DNA from: Pontibacter ummariensis
GTDB lineage: Bacteria > Bacteroidota > Bacteroidia > Cytophagales > Hymenobacteraceae
Direction of reading: 5' to 3'
Length of the DNA: 64,000 nucleotides
Assembly (NCBI RefSeq): GCF_900188175.1
Contig: NZ_FZOQ01000018.1
Coordinates: forward strand, 1-64,000
Position numbers and translations under genes: made by a program. The notes beneath the pieces are model-generated. The model did no database searches and was not told where the DNA came from. It saw only the letters and a list, made by a program, of their open reading frames with translations. Below, in pieces: positions 56,415 to 63,394 of the stretch; within the stretch, counting starts at the first letter, position 1, and each line of letters opens with the position of its first letter.

Positions 56415-56448
56415 TTGATACATGTAATCAGAAAAAAGTGTAACTTTA
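56415..56448 (+). promoter_or_regulatory. Possible promoter of the cysH leader
   Basis: TTG at 56415 and TAACTTTA at 56441-56448 (one change from TAnnTTTG), but with a long 23-base spacer. The riboswitch starts 40 bases downstream. Weak match. Confidence 0.3.
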
Positions 56449-56487
56449 CAACCTATAAAAGTATCAGACCTTCAAAGGTCTAACGAG

Positions 56488-56591
56488 AATTTATAAAGAA
56501 GAGGCGAGAGAATAGGCTCCGTGACCCTCTGGCAACCACTTATAAAGGAAGGTGCCAAATCCTATCCCGGCAAAGCGGGAACATATAAATT
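56488..56591 (+). promoter_or_regulatory. SAM-I type (S-box) riboswitch
   Basis: The sequence has the conserved S-box core in order: AAGAGGCGAGAGAATAGG, CCGTGACCCTCTGGCAACC, AAGGAAGGTGCCAAATCC. An 8-bp perfect P1 closing stem pairs 56488-56495 with 56584-56591, P2 pairs AGAG with CTCT, and a P4 hairpin is TCCCG-GCAAAG-CGGGA. GGCAACC and GGTGCCAAAT are hallmarks of the SAM-binding family. It sits directly before a cysteine-rich leader ORF and the cysH-cysD-cysN genes, so high SAM should lower their expression. I see no clear intrinsic terminator after it, so control may act on leader translation. Confidence 0.85.
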
Positions 56592-56600
56592 TCTAATGCA

Positions 56601-56714
56601 ATGCAGACAACAACTCACATATCGCCTTTAGTAATGGGAAGCACACCTGCTTCCTCACGCAACGCTTATGTTACTTCTCTGGCCTACAGCATGTCTTGTT
56701 GTTGCTGTTGCTAG
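56601..56714 (+). CDS. Leader peptide ending in five cysteines
   Basis: A 37-residue ORF beginning MQTTTHISPLVMG and ending AYSMSCCCCC, then TAG (codons TGT TGT TGC TGT TGC at 56697-56711). The ATG is 9 bases after the riboswitch P1 stem. A run of five Cys codons at the very end, before a stop and upstream of cysteine-synthesis genes, is what a tRNA-Cys-sensing attenuator would look like, by analogy with amino-acid leader peptides. It is not in the usual gene size range, has no signal peptide, and probably matters through its translation rather than as a protein. The mechanism in the following 226 bases is not obvious. Confidence 0.75.
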   Translation: MQTTTHISPLVMGSTPASSRNAYVTSLAYSMSCCCCC

Positions 56715-56940
56715 CTCTCTAATCGCTGCCTCTTTAGCTTTAGAGCCTGCACCCATTCTGCCGAACCTGGCGACACCTTCTGCCTTTCTTAAACTCCTTC
56801 GGCTATCCGTGCTTCCCGCATGTTACCCTATCCCCTTACCCGTACAGGTCTGGGCAAAGTAAAATGCCACCGGTAGCAGAAGCAGCAGAAACAGAAGGCC
56901 AACTAAAAATTATATTTTCATTCGCATTAACATACCACAC
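56715..56940. promoter_or_regulatory. Leader region between the Cys5 ORF and cysH
   Basis: A 226-base non-coding stretch. CCTTCTG at 56776-56782 can pair with CAGAAGG at 56892-56898, and the overlapping CTTCTGC (56777-56783) with GCAGAAG (56876-56882), so alternative folds are possible. No T-run terminator is seen. Confidence 0.4.
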
Positions 56941-57660
56941 ATGAGTCAGCCATCAGCTTTAGAAACAAAAGTGCCGGCGCTGCTTGCCCTGTTAGAGGGG
57001 AAAAGCATAGAAGAAGGGCTGCGCCTGCTGACAGAGCAATTTGAGGGAAGCATCGCTTTCTCCTCCAGCCTCGGCATCGAGGACCAGCTCATTACACACT
57101 ATATTTTTGAGAACAACCTGCCAGTCCGTGTTTTTTCGCTGGATACCGGGCGCCTGTTTAACGAGACCTACACCCTCCTGCATAAGACCAACAACCACTA
57201 CGGCAAGAAGATCGAGGTATTCTTCCCGAAGCACGAAGCCGTGGAGCAGATGGTGAACGAAAAAGGGACGATGAGTTTTTATAACTCCATCGACGACCGC
57301 AAGCAGTGCTGCTACATCCGGAAGGTAGAGCCTTTAAACCGCGCGCTGGAAGGCGTGCAGCTTTGGATTACCGGTATCCGCGCCGATCAGTCGGGTGCCC
57401 GCCAGAACCTGCAGCTGCTGGAGTGGGACGCGGAGCGCCAGCTGATCAAGTACAACCCGCTGCTGCACTGGTCTCTGGAGGAGGTAAGCCAAACGGTGAA
57501 GGCCCTTCACATCCCATACAACCCGCTACACGACAAAGGCTTTGTCAGCATTGGCTGTGCCCCTTGTACCCGCGCTATCCGCGAGGGCGAGGACTTCCGC
57601 GCCGGCCGTTGGTGGTGGGAAGACAATTCTAAAAAAGAGTGCGGGCTGCACGCCAGATAG
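56941..57660 (+). CDS. cysH: Adenylyl-sulfate (APS/PAPS) reductase
   Basis: A 239-residue enzyme that reduces activated sulfate to sulfite. The PP-loop-like SSSLGIEDQLITHY is at residues 41-54. Iron-sulfur ligands C123-C124 and C206-x2-C209 (CCYIRK, GCAPCTRAI) mark the [4Fe-4S] type, which normally uses APS. The catalytic C-terminal Cys234 lies in KKECGLH. The enzyme works directly after CysDN, encoded downstream. It is the first full gene behind the SAM riboswitch and Cys5 leader. A 91-base spacer, partly palindromic, separates it from cysD. Confidence 0.95.
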   Translation: MSQPSALETKVPALLALLEGKSIEEGLRLLTEQFEGSIAFSSSLGIEDQLITHYIFENNLPVRVFSLDTGRLFNETYTLLHKTNNHYGKKIEVFFPKHEAVEQMVNEKGTMSFYNSIDDRKQCCYIRKVEPLNRALEGVQLWITGIRADQSGARQNLQLLEWDAERQLIKYNPLLHWSLEEVSQTVKALHIPYNPLHDKGFVSIGCAPCTRAIREGEDFRAGRWWWEDNSKKECGLHAR

Positions 57661-57751: not shown

Positions 57752-58660
57752 ATGGACAAGAGATATCTTGATTACCTCGACCAGCTGGAGGCGGAAGCCA
57801 TCCACATCATGCGCGAGGTAGCAGGGCAATTCCAGAAACCCGCTCTGTTGTTTTCAGGCGGTAAAGATTCTATCACCCTGGTTCGCCTGGCGGAGAAAGC
57901 GTTCCGTCCGGGCAAGTTCCCGTTCCCCCTGGTGCACATCGATACAGGCCATAACTTTCCGGAGGCAATCCAATACCGTGATGAGCTGGCGGAGCGCCTG
58001 GGCGAGAAGCTGATTGTACGCCACGTAGAAGACACGATCAAAAAGCAAAACCTCTCAGAGGCCAAGGGCCGTTATGCCAGCCGCAATGGCCTGCAGACCT
58101 ATACCTTGCTGGAGACCATCGAAGAGTTTGGCTTTGACTGCTGCATTGGCGGTGCCCGTCGCGATGAGGAAAAGGCCCGCGCCAAAGAAAGGATCTTCTC
58201 GGTAAGAGATGAGTTTGGCCAGTGGGACCCGAAACGCCAGCGCCCGGAGCTATGGAATACTTACAATGGTCGCATTGCCATGGGAGAGAATGTCCGTGCC
58301 TTTCCGATCAGCAATTGGACGGAGCTGGATGTGTGGAATTACATCAAGCGCGAGAACATTGCCTTGCCGAACATTTACTATACCCACGAACGTGAGTGCC
58401 TGGTGCGCGATGGCAAACTGATGGCCTGGTCTGACTTTATCTACCGTGATCCGGAAGAAGAGATCGTGACCCGTAAAGTGCGTTTCCGCACCGTTGGCGA
58501 CATGACCTGTACTGCGGCCGTGGAATCTGTGGCCTATGATGTAGATGCGGTCATTGCCGAGATCATCGAGTCAAAAATAAGTGAGCGTGGCGCTACCCGC
58601 ATCGACGATAAATTATCGGAGACAGCGATGGAAGACCGCAAGAAAGGAGGATACTTTTAA
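57752..58660 (+). CDS. cysD: Sulfate adenylyltransferase subunit 2
   Basis: A 302-residue ATP-pyrophosphatase subunit of ATP sulfurylase, which makes APS from sulfate and ATP. The PP-loop LLFSGGKDSITLVRLAEKAF and the family stretches FPLVHIDTGHNFPE, CCIGGARRDEEKARAKER, NWTELDVWNYIKRENI and the C-terminal SERGATRIDDKLSETAMEDRKKGGYF are complete. Its stop TAA shares its last base with the ATG of cysN (58660), the GTPase partner, so the two subunits are translated together. Confidence 0.97.
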   Translation: MDKRYLDYLDQLEAEAIHIMREVAGQFQKPALLFSGGKDSITLVRLAEKAFRPGKFPFPLVHIDTGHNFPEAIQYRDELAERLGEKLIVRHVEDTIKKQNLSEAKGRYASRNGLQTYTLLETIEEFGFDCCIGGARRDEEKARAKERIFSVRDEFGQWDPKRQRPELWNTYNGRIAMGENVRAFPISNWTELDVWNYIKRENIALPNIYYTHERECLVRDGKLMAWSDFIYRDPEEEIVTRKVRFRTVGDMTCTAAVESVAYDVDAVIAEIIESKISERGATRIDDKLSETAMEDRKKGGYF

Positions 58661-59937
58661 TGGATATACTAAGATTTATAACGGCAGGCAGTGTAGACGA
58701 CGGCAAGAGCACCCTCATCGGCAGGTTGCTGTACGACACCAAGCAAATCTACATCGACCAACTCGAAGCCATTGAAAGCTCTGGCAGAGTAAACGAAGAC
58801 GGACAGGTAGACCTGTCGCTGCTGACGGACGGCCTGAAGGCAGAGCGCGAGCAGGGCATCACCATCGATGTGGCTTATAAGTACTTTAGCACACCAAAGC
58901 GTAAGTTTATTATTGCCGATGCCCCTGGCCATGTGCAGTATACCCGCAACATGGTAACAGGTGCCTCCAACTCTAACCTGTCCATCATTCTGGTCGATGC
59001 GCGTAAGGGCGTGCAGGAGCAAACCCGCCGCCACTCCATCATTTCCTCCCTGCTGGGTATCCCCCACCTGGTGATCTGCATCAACAAAATGGACTTAGTT
59101 GGTTTTGATGAGACAGTTTACAACCAGATCGTAGAAGACTACAAGCAGTTTGCGAAGAAGCTGAACGCAAAGGACATCACCTTTATTCCAATCAGTGCGC
59201 TGAAAGGCGACAATGTGGTAGACCGTTCTGTGCTGATGCCCTGGTACAATGGCCCTAGCCTGTTGGAGCACCTGGAGCAGGTACCTGTTTCCAGCGACTT
59301 TAACCTGGAGAACGCCCGCTTCCCGGTGCAGTACGTGATTCGCCCCCATACCCACGAGCACCACGACTACAGAGGCTATGCGGGTAAGGTGATCAGCGGT
59401 ACTTATCGTAAAGGCGATAAAGTAACGGTGCTGCCTTCCGGTCTGACGTCCACTATCAAGTCGGTAGAGCTAGGCGGTAAAGAGCTGGAGGAGGCCTTTG
59501 CCCCGATGTCTGTCGTGCTGCAGTTAGAAGACGATGTAGACATCAGCCGTGGCGATGTGATCGTGAAGGAGGAAGAAAACCTGGAGGTAACCAAGGAGTT
59601 TGAAGCACTGGTATGCTGGATGAACAACAAGCCATTAAAACCAGGTGCCAAACTGTTGTTGCGCCATAACTCTACTGAAACGCGCGCCATTGTGCGACAG
59701 ATACAGTATAAGGTAGATGTAAACGGACTGGACAACATCCTGGACGCAGACCAGGTACAACTGAACGACATCTGCCGGGTACAGCTGAAGACCGCCACGC
59801 CGCTGCTGCTCGACAAGTATGAGGACAACCGGGCAAACGGTGGCTTTATCCTGGTAGATGAGACCTCCTTTACAACGGTTGGCGCAGGCATGGTGGCAAG
59901 TATCACCCACGAGAGTGAGCTTAACTACATGATCTAA
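58660..59937 (+). CDS. cysN: Sulfate adenylyltransferase subunit 1 (GTPase)
   Basis: A 425-residue EF-Tu-like GTPase that drives APS synthesis by CysD. G1 is GSVDDGKSTLIGRLLYD, then the switch region EREQGITIDVAYKYF, G3 DAPGHVQYTRNM, G4 NKMDLVGFD and G5 ISALKGDN. Beta-barrel domains 2 and 3 follow. There is no fused CysC (APS kinase) domain, which agrees with a CysH that uses APS directly. A hairpin repeat and a strong terminator follow, closing the operon. Confidence 0.97.
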   Translation: MDILRFITAGSVDDGKSTLIGRLLYDTKQIYIDQLEAIESSGRVNEDGQVDLSLLTDGLKAEREQGITIDVAYKYFSTPKRKFIIADAPGHVQYTRNMVTGASNSNLSIILVDARKGVQEQTRRHSIISSLLGIPHLVICINKMDLVGFDETVYNQIVEDYKQFAKKLNAKDITFIPISALKGDNVVDRSVLMPWYNGPSLLEHLEQVPVSSDFNLENARFPVQYVIRPHTHEHHDYRGYAGKVISGTYRKGDKVTVLPSGLTSTIKSVELGGKELEEAFAPMSVVLQLEDDVDISRGDVIVKEEENLEVTKEFEALVCWMNNKPLKPGAKLLLRHNSTETRAIVRQIQYKVDVNGLDNILDADQVQLNDICRVQLKTATPLLLDKYEDNRANGGFILVDETSFTTVGAGMVASITHESELNYMI

Positions 59938-61849: not shown

Positions 61850-63394
61850 TTAAAAAGGAAGCGCCATAAAAATCAGTCGCAGGCTGACAATAATGACAAC
61901 GATCCCGACAATGATCATCATGGTTTTAACCGGTAGCCTCCTGGCCAGCATCGCTCCCAGCGGTGCCGAAATGGTACCTCCTAAGATCAGGCCTACTATG
62001 ATCTGCCAATGCGTAATCCCGATTAAGGAAATAAAGGCAGCAGAGCTGGCAAAAGACACAAAGAACTCGGCCAGGTTCACTGAGCCAATGGTGTACATGG
62101 GATGCCGGCCTTTGGCAATAAGGGTGGAAGAAACGATAGGCCCCCAGCCGCCGCCGCCAATAGCATCCATAAATCCACCGATGGCGCCCAGCATGCCCAG
62201 CCTTTTCACAGGCTTCTTTTGCACATGCTTCTTCAGCACTTTCCGAATGATCAGAATACCCAGGAACAGGGTATAGCTTGCCACGACCGGCTTGATCAGG
62301 TACAGGTACTCCTCTAGTGTATACAGCAGGAAGGCCCCTACAATAGCCCCCAGTACTCCCGGAAACACAATTGTCTTAAACAGTTTGCTGTTCACGTTGC
62401 CAAACTTCAGGTGCATCCAGCCAGACACCCCCGAGGTAAAGATCTCGGAGGCATGCACGCTGGCACTCGCCGCCACCGGCGACACGCCGAAGCTAAGCAG
62501 GAAGGTGGTGGCACTCACGCCGTACGCCATCCCTAAGGCACCGTCAATCAACTGCGCCACAAAGCCAGCCAGGATGAAGATCAATATTTCCTGGTCTATC
62601 TGCGCTGCCACATCCATGGCCACCGCCCCGATGGTGCTGAACGGGACGTAGCTGAAAAGCAGGTGGCCTGTTATCATCAGGGAGAGGGCAGCAAAGAGAA
62701 GCATCAATACAACCTTCAGGCTGTACTTGCTCTCCTTCTTCTTTCTGGTAGTGGCCGGTGCATTGGCTGGCTCCACCAGCAGCTCCGTTACCTCATTCAG
62801 CCGCTTTACCTTGTAAGCGAAGTCGCCTTTCAGTTGTGCCCGTATTTGGGTCAACTTATCGAGCACCTGCTCCATTTCCTCTGGCAAGGCCTCATTCAAC
62901 ACCTGCTTCAGGCGCTTTGCGACTGTTGGCGACTTGCCGTTGGTCGAAATCGCCAGCTTCAGGCTTCCCTTCTGCACAATAGAGCCCAGGTAAAAGTCGC
63001 ACTGCTGCGGGGTGTCGGCCACGTTGGTTAAAATCTTGCGCGATTTCGCCAGGTCCCGGATGGTTACGTTCAGCACATGGTCGTCCGTCGCCACCAGCAC
63101 CAGGTCCTGGCCTGCCAGGTCCTCCTCCCGAAACTCACGCGCGATCAGTTCTACCTGCGGGTGCTTCGCCGCCAGTGCCCAGATGTCCACGTGTATCTCC
63201 GGGGCTACCAGCACCACACTTGCTTTGGGGCTATTGGCCAGTATTGCAGACAGTTTCTCAAGCCCCACCGCGCCGCCGCCCACTACCAGCGTCTGTAGCT
63301 CTTCCAGTTTGAGAAAGACCGGAAACAATGGGTTTGCTTTGGGCTGTACCGCCTCGGCAGAGGAGCTTTCCGTTACGTCTGGCGTTTTATCCAT
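61850..63394 (-). CDS. Precorrin-2 dehydrogenase domain fused to a TSUP (TauE/SafE) transporter
   Basis: A 514-residue fusion. Residues about 20-215 are a siroheme synthase N-terminal (Met8/CysG-type) domain: LFPVFLKLEELQTLVVGGGAVGLEKL binds NAD, NVADTPQQCDFYLGSIV carries the catalytic Asp, and ISTNGKSPTVAKRLK follows. A basic linker (TTRKKKESK) leads to a TSUP/TauE-SafE permease from about residue 230 to the end, with about eight transmembrane helices (FVAQLIDGALGMAYGVSATTFLLSFG, GGFMDAIGGGGWGPIVSSTLI). One polypeptide would thus make siroheme for sulfite reductase and move a sulfur anion across the membrane. The stop of the methyltransferase gene is 33 bases upstream, so they form an operon. 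The direction and substrate of transport are unknown. Confidence 0.92.
   Translation of the reverse strand: MDKTPDVTESSSAEAVQPKANPLFPVFLKLEELQTLVVGGGAVGLEKLSAILANSPKASVVLVAPEIHVDIWALAAKHPQVELIAREFREEDLAGQDLVLVATDDHVLNVTIRDLAKSRKILTNVADTPQQCDFYLGSIVQKGSLKLAISTNGKSPTVAKRLKQVLNEALPEEMEQVLDKLTQIRAQLKGDFAYKVKRLNEVTELLVEPANAPATTRKKKESKYSLKVVLMLLFAALSLMITGHLLFSYVPFSTIGAVAMDVAAQIDQEILIFILAGFVAQLIDGALGMAYGVSATTFLLSFGVSPVAASASVHASEIFTSGVSGWMHLKFGNVNSKLFKTIVFPGVLGAIVGAFLLYTLEEYLYLIKPVVASYTLFLGILIIRKVLKKHVQKKPVKRLGMLGAIGGFMDAIGGGGWGPIVSSTLIAKGRHPMYTIGSVNLAEFFVSFASSAAFISLIGITHWQIIVGLILGGTISAPLGAMLARRLPVKTMMIIVGIVVIIVSLRLIFMALPF

Follow-up and report, generated by a model that had tools for sequence, protein, structure and literature searches.

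A probable cysteine-responsive leader peptide behind a SAM-I riboswitch upstream of cysHDN in Pontibacter

A 64,000-nt stretch of DNA from Pontibacter ummariensis (contig NZ_FZOQ01000018.1), which is the window of this analysis, carries a short open reading frame whose last five codons before the stop all encode cysteine. The question raised by this locus was what such an upstream ORF (uORF) could do ahead of sulfate-assimilation genes. The features of the locus are given in Table 1. The first-pass annotation had proposed an ORF ending in Cys5-TAG that used both Cys codons, and this was confirmed on the forward strand. It had also placed the ORF directly upstream of cysH-cysD-cysN; the genes do lie downstream on the same strand, but "directly" was too strong because a 226-nt spacer stands ahead of cysH. 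The ORF probably serves the cysHDN mRNA as a regulatory leader peptide, in which a ribosome pause at the terminal Cys codons would raise the expression of the sulfate-assimilation genes. The overall explanation, a regulatory leader peptide with a SAM-gated start and protection from Rho, was considered probable. The promoter in Table 1 was a weak candidate, and its downstream element matches seven of the eight letters of TAnnTTTG, which we take to be the Bacteroidota-type promoter consensus.

Table 1. Features of the cysHDN leader region and operon in the 64,000-nt window.
Feature	Position	Strand	Details
Possible Bacteroidota-type promoter	56415..56448	+	TTG 56415-56417, TAACTTTA 56441-56448; by eye, weak candidate
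SAM-I riboswitch aptamer RF00162	56488..56591	+	79.2 bits, cut-off 44.4, model positions 1-108
Aptamer P1 strands	56488..56495 and 56583..56592	+	AATTTATA and ATATAAATTT, respectively; assigned by eye
Leader ORF, 37 aa	56601..56714	+	ATG to TAG; peptide MQTTTHISPLVMGSTPASSRNAYVTSLAYSMSCCCCC, then stop
Five consecutive Cys codons and stop; predicted stall site	56697..56714	+	TGT TGT TGC TGT TGC 56697-56711, TAG 56712-56714
Untranslated spacer, 226 nt; candidate Rho-loading or attenuator region	56715..56940	+	C 0.32, G 0.16
cysH, (phospho)adenylylsulfate reductase	56941..57660	+	NF002537 274.1 bits, TIGR02055 252.2 bits (NCBIfam)
cysD, sulfate adenylyltransferase small subunit	57752..58660	+	NF003587 442.9 bits
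cysN, sulfate adenylyltransferase large subunit	58660..59937	+	TIGR02034 572.6 bits

The conservation of the arrangement was evaluated via a CysH search over 50 genomes of the genus, which gave 38 places in 37 genomes, and 30 of these were read. The riboswitch and a poly-Cys uORF were both present at all 24 Pontibacter cysH loci with a CysH identity of at least 66%, the window locus included; the other 23 (L062-L084) all contained RF00162. The Cys run in these uORFs was 3-8 codons long and lay near the stop. The rule, with a tail limit of three codons, recovered 23 of the 24 uORFs, and L065, which missed the limit, was counted after reading; a tail limit of five codons was used in the later scans beyond the cysH count. 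Six cysH loci of 54-55% identity (L085-L090) had no RF00162 in the stretch examined and no poly-Cys uORF within 800 nt. All 14 named Pontibacter cysH loci (66-82% identity) carried the uORF, although these overlap with the 24 and are not independent of them. A Cys run lost or frameshifted while the riboswitch stayed had been named as the outcome fatal to the leader-peptide reading, and it was seen at none of the 24 cysH loci, which keep both elements.

The same device was found before other genes behind SAM riboswitches. Searches of the genus, the order and the class provided a set of 186 SAM-riboswitch loci, drawn from score-ranked lists and our own picks and thus not random, and a poly-Cys uORF was defined as an ORF with at least three Cys codons, at most five codons before the stop, in a run starting within 350 nt. 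Each gene was labelled after its top tblastn match in a reference set with Pfam or NCBIfam names. The incomplete locus L093 and L238 were left out, L413 was unused, L234 held only about 230 nt behind its riboswitch, and the genus-list riboswitches that belong to cysH loci (L066 at least) were passed over in this set and read separately. A poly-Cys uORF preceded MetY at 46 of 62 loci (27/31 in the genus, 17/26 in the order and 2/5 in the class), an ATP-grasp gene at 8 of 8 and a Na+/H+ antiporter-family gene at 3 of 3. It also occurred before MetX (2/10), unlabelled genes (4/21) and CysD-labelled genes (2/2, the window and L252, a doubtful positive because the 15-aa ORF begins as far away as +79 and is possibly a chance one). 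It was found before none of the MetH (0/49), homocysteine methyltransferase (hcyMT; 0/15), MetC/CGL (0/10) and MetK (0/3) genes or those labelled OSHS-like sulfhydrylase (0/3). The Fisher p value for this gene specificity was 2e-23, uncorrected for relatedness.

The controls were close to zero. Under the first rule, 29 of 57 riboswitch loci were positive, as against one of 57 each for the antisense, upstream and far-downstream positions; these 57 include the incomplete loci L093 and L108, with wrong coordinates. None of 30 TPP riboswitches was followed by a poly-Cys uORF, nor was any of the 30 best-scoring class-level SAM riboswitches. With 20 further loci added, two of all 50 class-level loci were positive, and 25 of the 50 were labelled MetH or hcyMT. 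A pattern scan for four TGY codons followed by TRR gave many matches per genome, which were left unsorted and served as a lead alone.

The ATP-grasp label was shared by L419 and by L013, L018, L029, L178, L182, L186, L187 and L207. One of these loci was read further (L419, 4372-6386), where an ATP-grasp protein of unknown role is followed by an SfnG/SsuD-like luciferase-family monooxygenase. This neighbour resembles SfnG and alkanesulfonate monooxygenases at scores below their curated cut-offs, and the ATP-grasp operon may therefore scavenge organic sulfur. The antiporter-family loci L021 (PF03553), L195 and L203 (by tblastn) combine a SAM riboswitch with a poly-Cys leader, and their gene is a candidate transporter for a sulfur compound. 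In the same genus, a terminator-like hairpin ending in a T run came after the riboswitches of the metC/CGL-type genes at L001, L002 and L003, where no poly-Cys ORF was present.

The distance between the riboswitch and the uORF start was then of importance. At the window locus the covariance model gave a full-length RF00162 match above the gathering cut-off, which is the likeness to SAM-I riboswitches of the S box, namely a 79.2-bit aptamer before sulfur genes. Unlike the usual SAM-I arrangement, neither a terminator nor an enzyme start directly follows; the leader ORF start does, its ATG beginning at the tenth base past the aptamer end. Among the 65 poly-Cys uORFs, the first counted ATG lay at +9 in 37 and at +7 in 14, and 62 had an in-frame ATG at +6 to +12. 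The letters TATAAATTGATA ahead of the start codon were invariant in the 27 Pontibacter MetY leaders. An ATG at +6 to +12 behind the riboswitch was absent from the MetH (0/49), hcyMT (0/15) and MetK (0/3) loci, and it was present at 2 of 10 MetC/CGL loci and at 5 of 8 MetX loci without a poly-Cys uORF. The spacing suggests that the uORF start is positioned against the aptamer P1 helix, i.e., that the riboswitch gates it. In the ligand-free fold of the aptamer and uORF (56470-56720), P1 was not closed and the stability was no better than that of shuffles (z -0.82); hence, folding gives SAM gating no support.

The start codon was kept more strictly than the Cys run before metY. The 16 MetY leaders without a strict run had their start codon at the same position in all 16 cases, a median length of 40 and an excess of C over G in 16 of 16. 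At least three Cys or Met residues were present among the last ten in 8 of the 16, and 5 of the 16 had none, which counts against the proposed sensing. Since the start codon is kept while the Cys and Met codons vary, the uORF start looks like a shared platform of the metY group, and the sensing codons look like an optional addition, open to loss. The loss of the run beside a retained riboswitch, unseen at cysH, was seen in a few cases before metY: 4 of 31 Pontibacter loci (L007, L017, L198 and L204) lack a strict run. Three of these four still have five or six Cys or Met residues among the last ten.

From these positions and the codon content we infer that the leader is translated and acts in two steps, gating by SAM and stalling, ahead of a termination step. 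SAM would be expected to switch these genes off, and P1 adjoins the uORF start; therefore, translation of the uORF should be activating. The SAM-bound aptamer, with P1 about 10 nt ahead of the leader ATG, would block initiation of the leader. That SAM acts in this manner on the leader and not on the enzyme was given an even chance. When charged tRNA-Cys is scarce, the ribosome would pause at the terminal Cys codons, and this pause would lead to higher expression of cysH-cysD-cysN. Expression would thus need low SAM together with low cysteine, and in metY also low methionine.

Protection from Rho would be the likeliest route from the pause to the genes, an assignment held at somewhat less than an even chance. 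Rho would load on the C-rich RNA of an untranslated leader, or of a spacer bared after the ribosome departs, and ribosomes held at the Cys run would keep it off. The base composition was examined accordingly. An excess of C over G marked 62 of the 65 uORF bodies and, across five gene groups, 75 of 78 spacers, so that the C-rich, G-poor untranslated stretch of Rho-dependent attenuators was present here. The corresponding counts in the comparison sets were 30/59 for MetH/MetC leaders, 17/30 for TPP leaders and 9/30 upstream of the riboswitch, and the two coding controls gave 24/30 and 12/70. Rho is encoded once in this genome. The C-rich, G-poor composition of the leader suggests Rho-dependent attenuation. 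A weakly structured Rho loading site was not found in the window, whose leader was the one folded: shuffled versions of 56690-56960 were mostly less stable than the native sequence (z -2.60, with 2 of 200 folding as well), which makes this region ill-suited to a bare Rho site. It also counts against Rho protection that a stalled ribosome would leave much of the 226-nt spacer uncovered.

The strongest rival places the switch in the spacer RNA, in the manner of classical or translation attenuation. The stalled ribosome would tip the balance between alternative hairpins and so unmask or sequester either the cysH start or an intrinsic terminator, and the SAM riboswitch would act independently; this was judged fairly unlikely. 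The stable fold of the window's spacer region speaks for it, and RNAalifold on 12 aligned cysH spacers returned just a 5-bp hairpin, placed over the last Cys codon and the stop. Visual inspection showed a small hairpin with CAG[AG] and [CU]CUG arms behind the leader stop of several MetY spacers in Pontibacter (e.g., L010, L188 and L200), and in the three antiporter leaders the pairing between the Cys run and the spacer was better than in shuffles (mean z -1.17). However, RNAalifold on the MAFFT alignment of 27 MetY spacers gave a consensus with 0 pairs and did not recover the CAG[AG]/[CU]CUG hairpin. Pairing between the Cys run and the spacer was about that of shuffles for 45 MetY, 24 CysH and 8 ATP-grasp leaders (mean z -0.20, -0.67 and 0.02, respectively). 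Terminator-like hairpins, scored with a crude rule of this analysis, do occur in 12 of 82 poly-Cys spacers, but they are rarer there than in the uORF-free MetH/MetC/hcyMT leaders (28/74). Classical arm pairing of the Cys codons with GCAGCAG-like downstream arms was tried and rejected, as such arms were found in 4 of 45 MetY spacers (6.9 expected) and 1 of 8 ATP-grasp spacers (2.7 expected). The same motif was modestly enriched in CysH spacers (13/24, 8.2 expected).

A second rival takes the peptide itself as the product, a small Cys-rich metal- or redox-binding peptide, and this was rated very improbable. A row of five to eight thiols would be capable of metal binding. On the other hand, none of the six leader peptides tried had an NCBIfam match, and the placement was leader-like: 46 of 65 positives stood before MetY and 13 more before ATP-grasp, antiporter or cys-operon genes. 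Much of the remaining peptide also varies. In the alignment of the 24 cysH leader peptides, the agreement was best in two places, the Cys run and the start (M in 24, Q in 19 and T in 20 of 24); an added Met-Cys followed the run in 10 of 24, and Trp-Met-Cys did so in one. The pairwise differences at codon positions 1/2/3 were 0.071/0.060/0.436 in the Cys run, whereas the remaining uORF codons gave 0.550/0.446/0.584 (kinship ignored). On the evidence of these alignments, the pattern is that of selection on decoding as cysteine. The comparison of codon with peptide conservation that the first-pass annotation had called for thus gave constrained Cys codons within a peptide that varies over much of its remaining length.

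The frame of the run bore on a third rival, in which (UGY)n is an undecoded RNA motif or protein-binding motif. The UGY repeats tolerate exchange of U and C, as an RNA motif could. Every run of at least three TGY codons within 260 nt was counted, regardless of whether the frame was open, for the riboswitches with an ATG at +6 to +12, and 65 of the 66 runs shared the reading frame of that ATG. In 46 of the 65 poly-Cys uORFs the stop codon follows the run immediately, and in the others the run lies a few codons from it; the uORF length varies (median 41 codons) and the frame is kept. Met codons, moreover, are enriched in the same frame of the MetY leaders: Met occupied 78 of 644 codons in the 14 positions before the run, and the two alternative frames had 9 and 5. 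The enrichment was marked in the Pontibacter MetY leaders (62/378, compared with 3 and 0) and weaker in those of the order and class (16/266, compared with 6 and 5). In the ATP-grasp leaders, Cys numbered 6-7 and the start codon was the sole Met. The undecoded-motif reading was rejected on the frame test and the controls, and is about as improbable as a peptide product. A chance ORF, which a short ORF by itself cannot argue against, was refuted by the 24 of 24 similar Pontibacter loci, by the near-zero controls and by the single match of (TGY)5-TAR in the whole window, at the leader ORF, with 0 of 100 window shuffles containing it; its probability is negligible, and the claim that such a Cys5 run is very unlikely to arise by chance was borne out.

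The preferred reading remained a decoded regulatory leader. On the comparative evidence, the codons are decoded and their identity suits the gene behind them, and the best reading of their content is a metY leader sensing Cys and Met and cysH and ATP-grasp leaders sensing Cys. The analogy with amino-acid leader peptides that had first been drawn from the window finds comparative support, because the run is selected as Cys codons and is in frame with the uORF start. Of the features of an amino-acid attenuator, the small ORF ahead of the operon was found, with its repeated codons for the amino acid that the operon makes and their conservation as codons. Mutually exclusive hairpins ending in an intrinsic terminator were not found in conserved form.

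Several known systems share parts of this arrangement. The poly-cysteine uORFs of mycobacteria are reportedly leaderless, as treated by Canestrari et al. in Mol. Microbiol. in 2020. In mycobacteria, short ORFs that contain an unbroken series of Cys codons and precede cysteine genes are described as sensing cysteine via ribosome speed (PMC9031893, PMC13236596). Contiguous Cys codons before cysteine genes are the feature in common, and it was present in Pontibacter. By those accounts the mycobacterial uORFs are leaderless, whereas the Pontibacter ORF sits behind a SAM-I riboswitch and its metY versions add Met codons. The anatomy speaks against a leaderless status in Pontibacter, as the 104-nt aptamer ahead of the ATG at 56601 would be expected to form part of the transcript. 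The uORFC-8-2 motif upstream of cysS in Rhodobacterales has conserved tandem Cys codons and was read by its authors as a ribosome-mediated attenuator; it has two Cys codons, most often the 14th and 15th of the uORF, and is accompanied by stems and an intrinsic terminator (PMC8632094). The Bacteroidota uORFs differ in their terminal run of 3-8 codons, in the lack of any conserved terminator found and in the genes that they precede.

The relay from a riboswitch to a uORF also has a counterpart. In M. tuberculosis ppe2, a B12 riboswitch controls the translation of a leader ORF, and downstream expression depends on that uORF (PMC11260477). The proposed Pontibacter relay is alike in having a riboswitch upstream of a uORF on which the gene would depend. 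The ppe2 uORF, however, overlaps the gene start and acts mainly through termination-reinitiation, and no amino-acid sensing is described in the portion of PMC11260477 available. Stalling beside a Rho site is likewise known elsewhere. The E. coli tnaC leader stalls at its end, next to a Rho site, in response to tryptophan. In E. coli toiL-topAI, uORF stalling was linked to the relief of Rho-dependent termination (PMC12121999). The signals in these two systems are antibiotics or tryptophan and involve no riboswitch, whereas the Pontibacter leader has a SAM-I riboswitch. The first-pass annotation had known of no described Bacteroidota case. None appeared among the top-ranked open-licence papers; for F. 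psychrophilum, amino-acid operons are reported to show "strong clues" that leader peptides attenuate them (PMC9723704). No earlier description of a SAM riboswitch paired with a Cys leader was found among the top-ranked open-licence literature.

The spread of the uORF beyond Pontibacter was limited. Among 80 named cysH loci, 22 carried a poly-Cys uORF, namely all 14 of Pontibacter and 8 of 66 others; the antisense and far-upstream controls gave 0/80 and 0/75. Five of these eight were labelled Puia, Hydrotalea or Chitinophagaceae, and just one of the eight (L356) had an RF00162 riboswitch; some Chitinophagaceae thus have a poly-Cys uORF before cysH without the riboswitch. In the phylum sample, in which 59 of 107 listed cysH loci were read, the uORF was present at 6 of 59 (antisense 1/59) and the riboswitch at 2 of these 6. 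The cysH loci without the uORF, 53 of 59 in this sample and 58 of 66 among the named non-Pontibacter loci, count against generality. The occurrence of poly-Cys uORFs without the riboswitch indicates that the leader and the riboswitch are separable modules. The broadest form of the proposal is serial two-signal control, modular across Bacteroidota, in which the output of the SAM-I riboswitch would be the leader start codon, the terminal codons a second sensor and Rho the executor; it is tentative and seems rather less likely than not to hold in full. Four of the riboswitch-free cysH leaders (L319, L337, L344 and L345) showed, by eye, GTAGAC/GTCTA repeats around the promoter and just past the uORF stop, as well as CACCACCACC-like letters right before cysH.

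If the explanation is true, it would account for how the Bacteroidota SAM riboswitches that lack a terminator or a nearby enzyme start work, and it would place cysteine leader peptides far from the mycobacteria. It would also provide a case from nature in which the output of a metabolite riboswitch is passed on to an amino-acid attenuator. In the broadest form of the proposal, the amino-acid test would be run only if SAM allowed it. The codon content of each leader could then serve as a readout of the amino acids that its operon tracks, and uncharacterised genes are flagged by it as possible sulfur-supply genes, namely the ATP-grasp operon with its SfnG-like neighbour and the antiporter-family transporter. 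In the window itself, the cys genes are adjoined by a notable fusion on the reverse strand (61850-63394), a 514-aa protein that joins a siroheme-synthase N-terminal domain of the precorrin-2 dehydrogenase type to a TauE/SafE sulfite-exporter-like domain.
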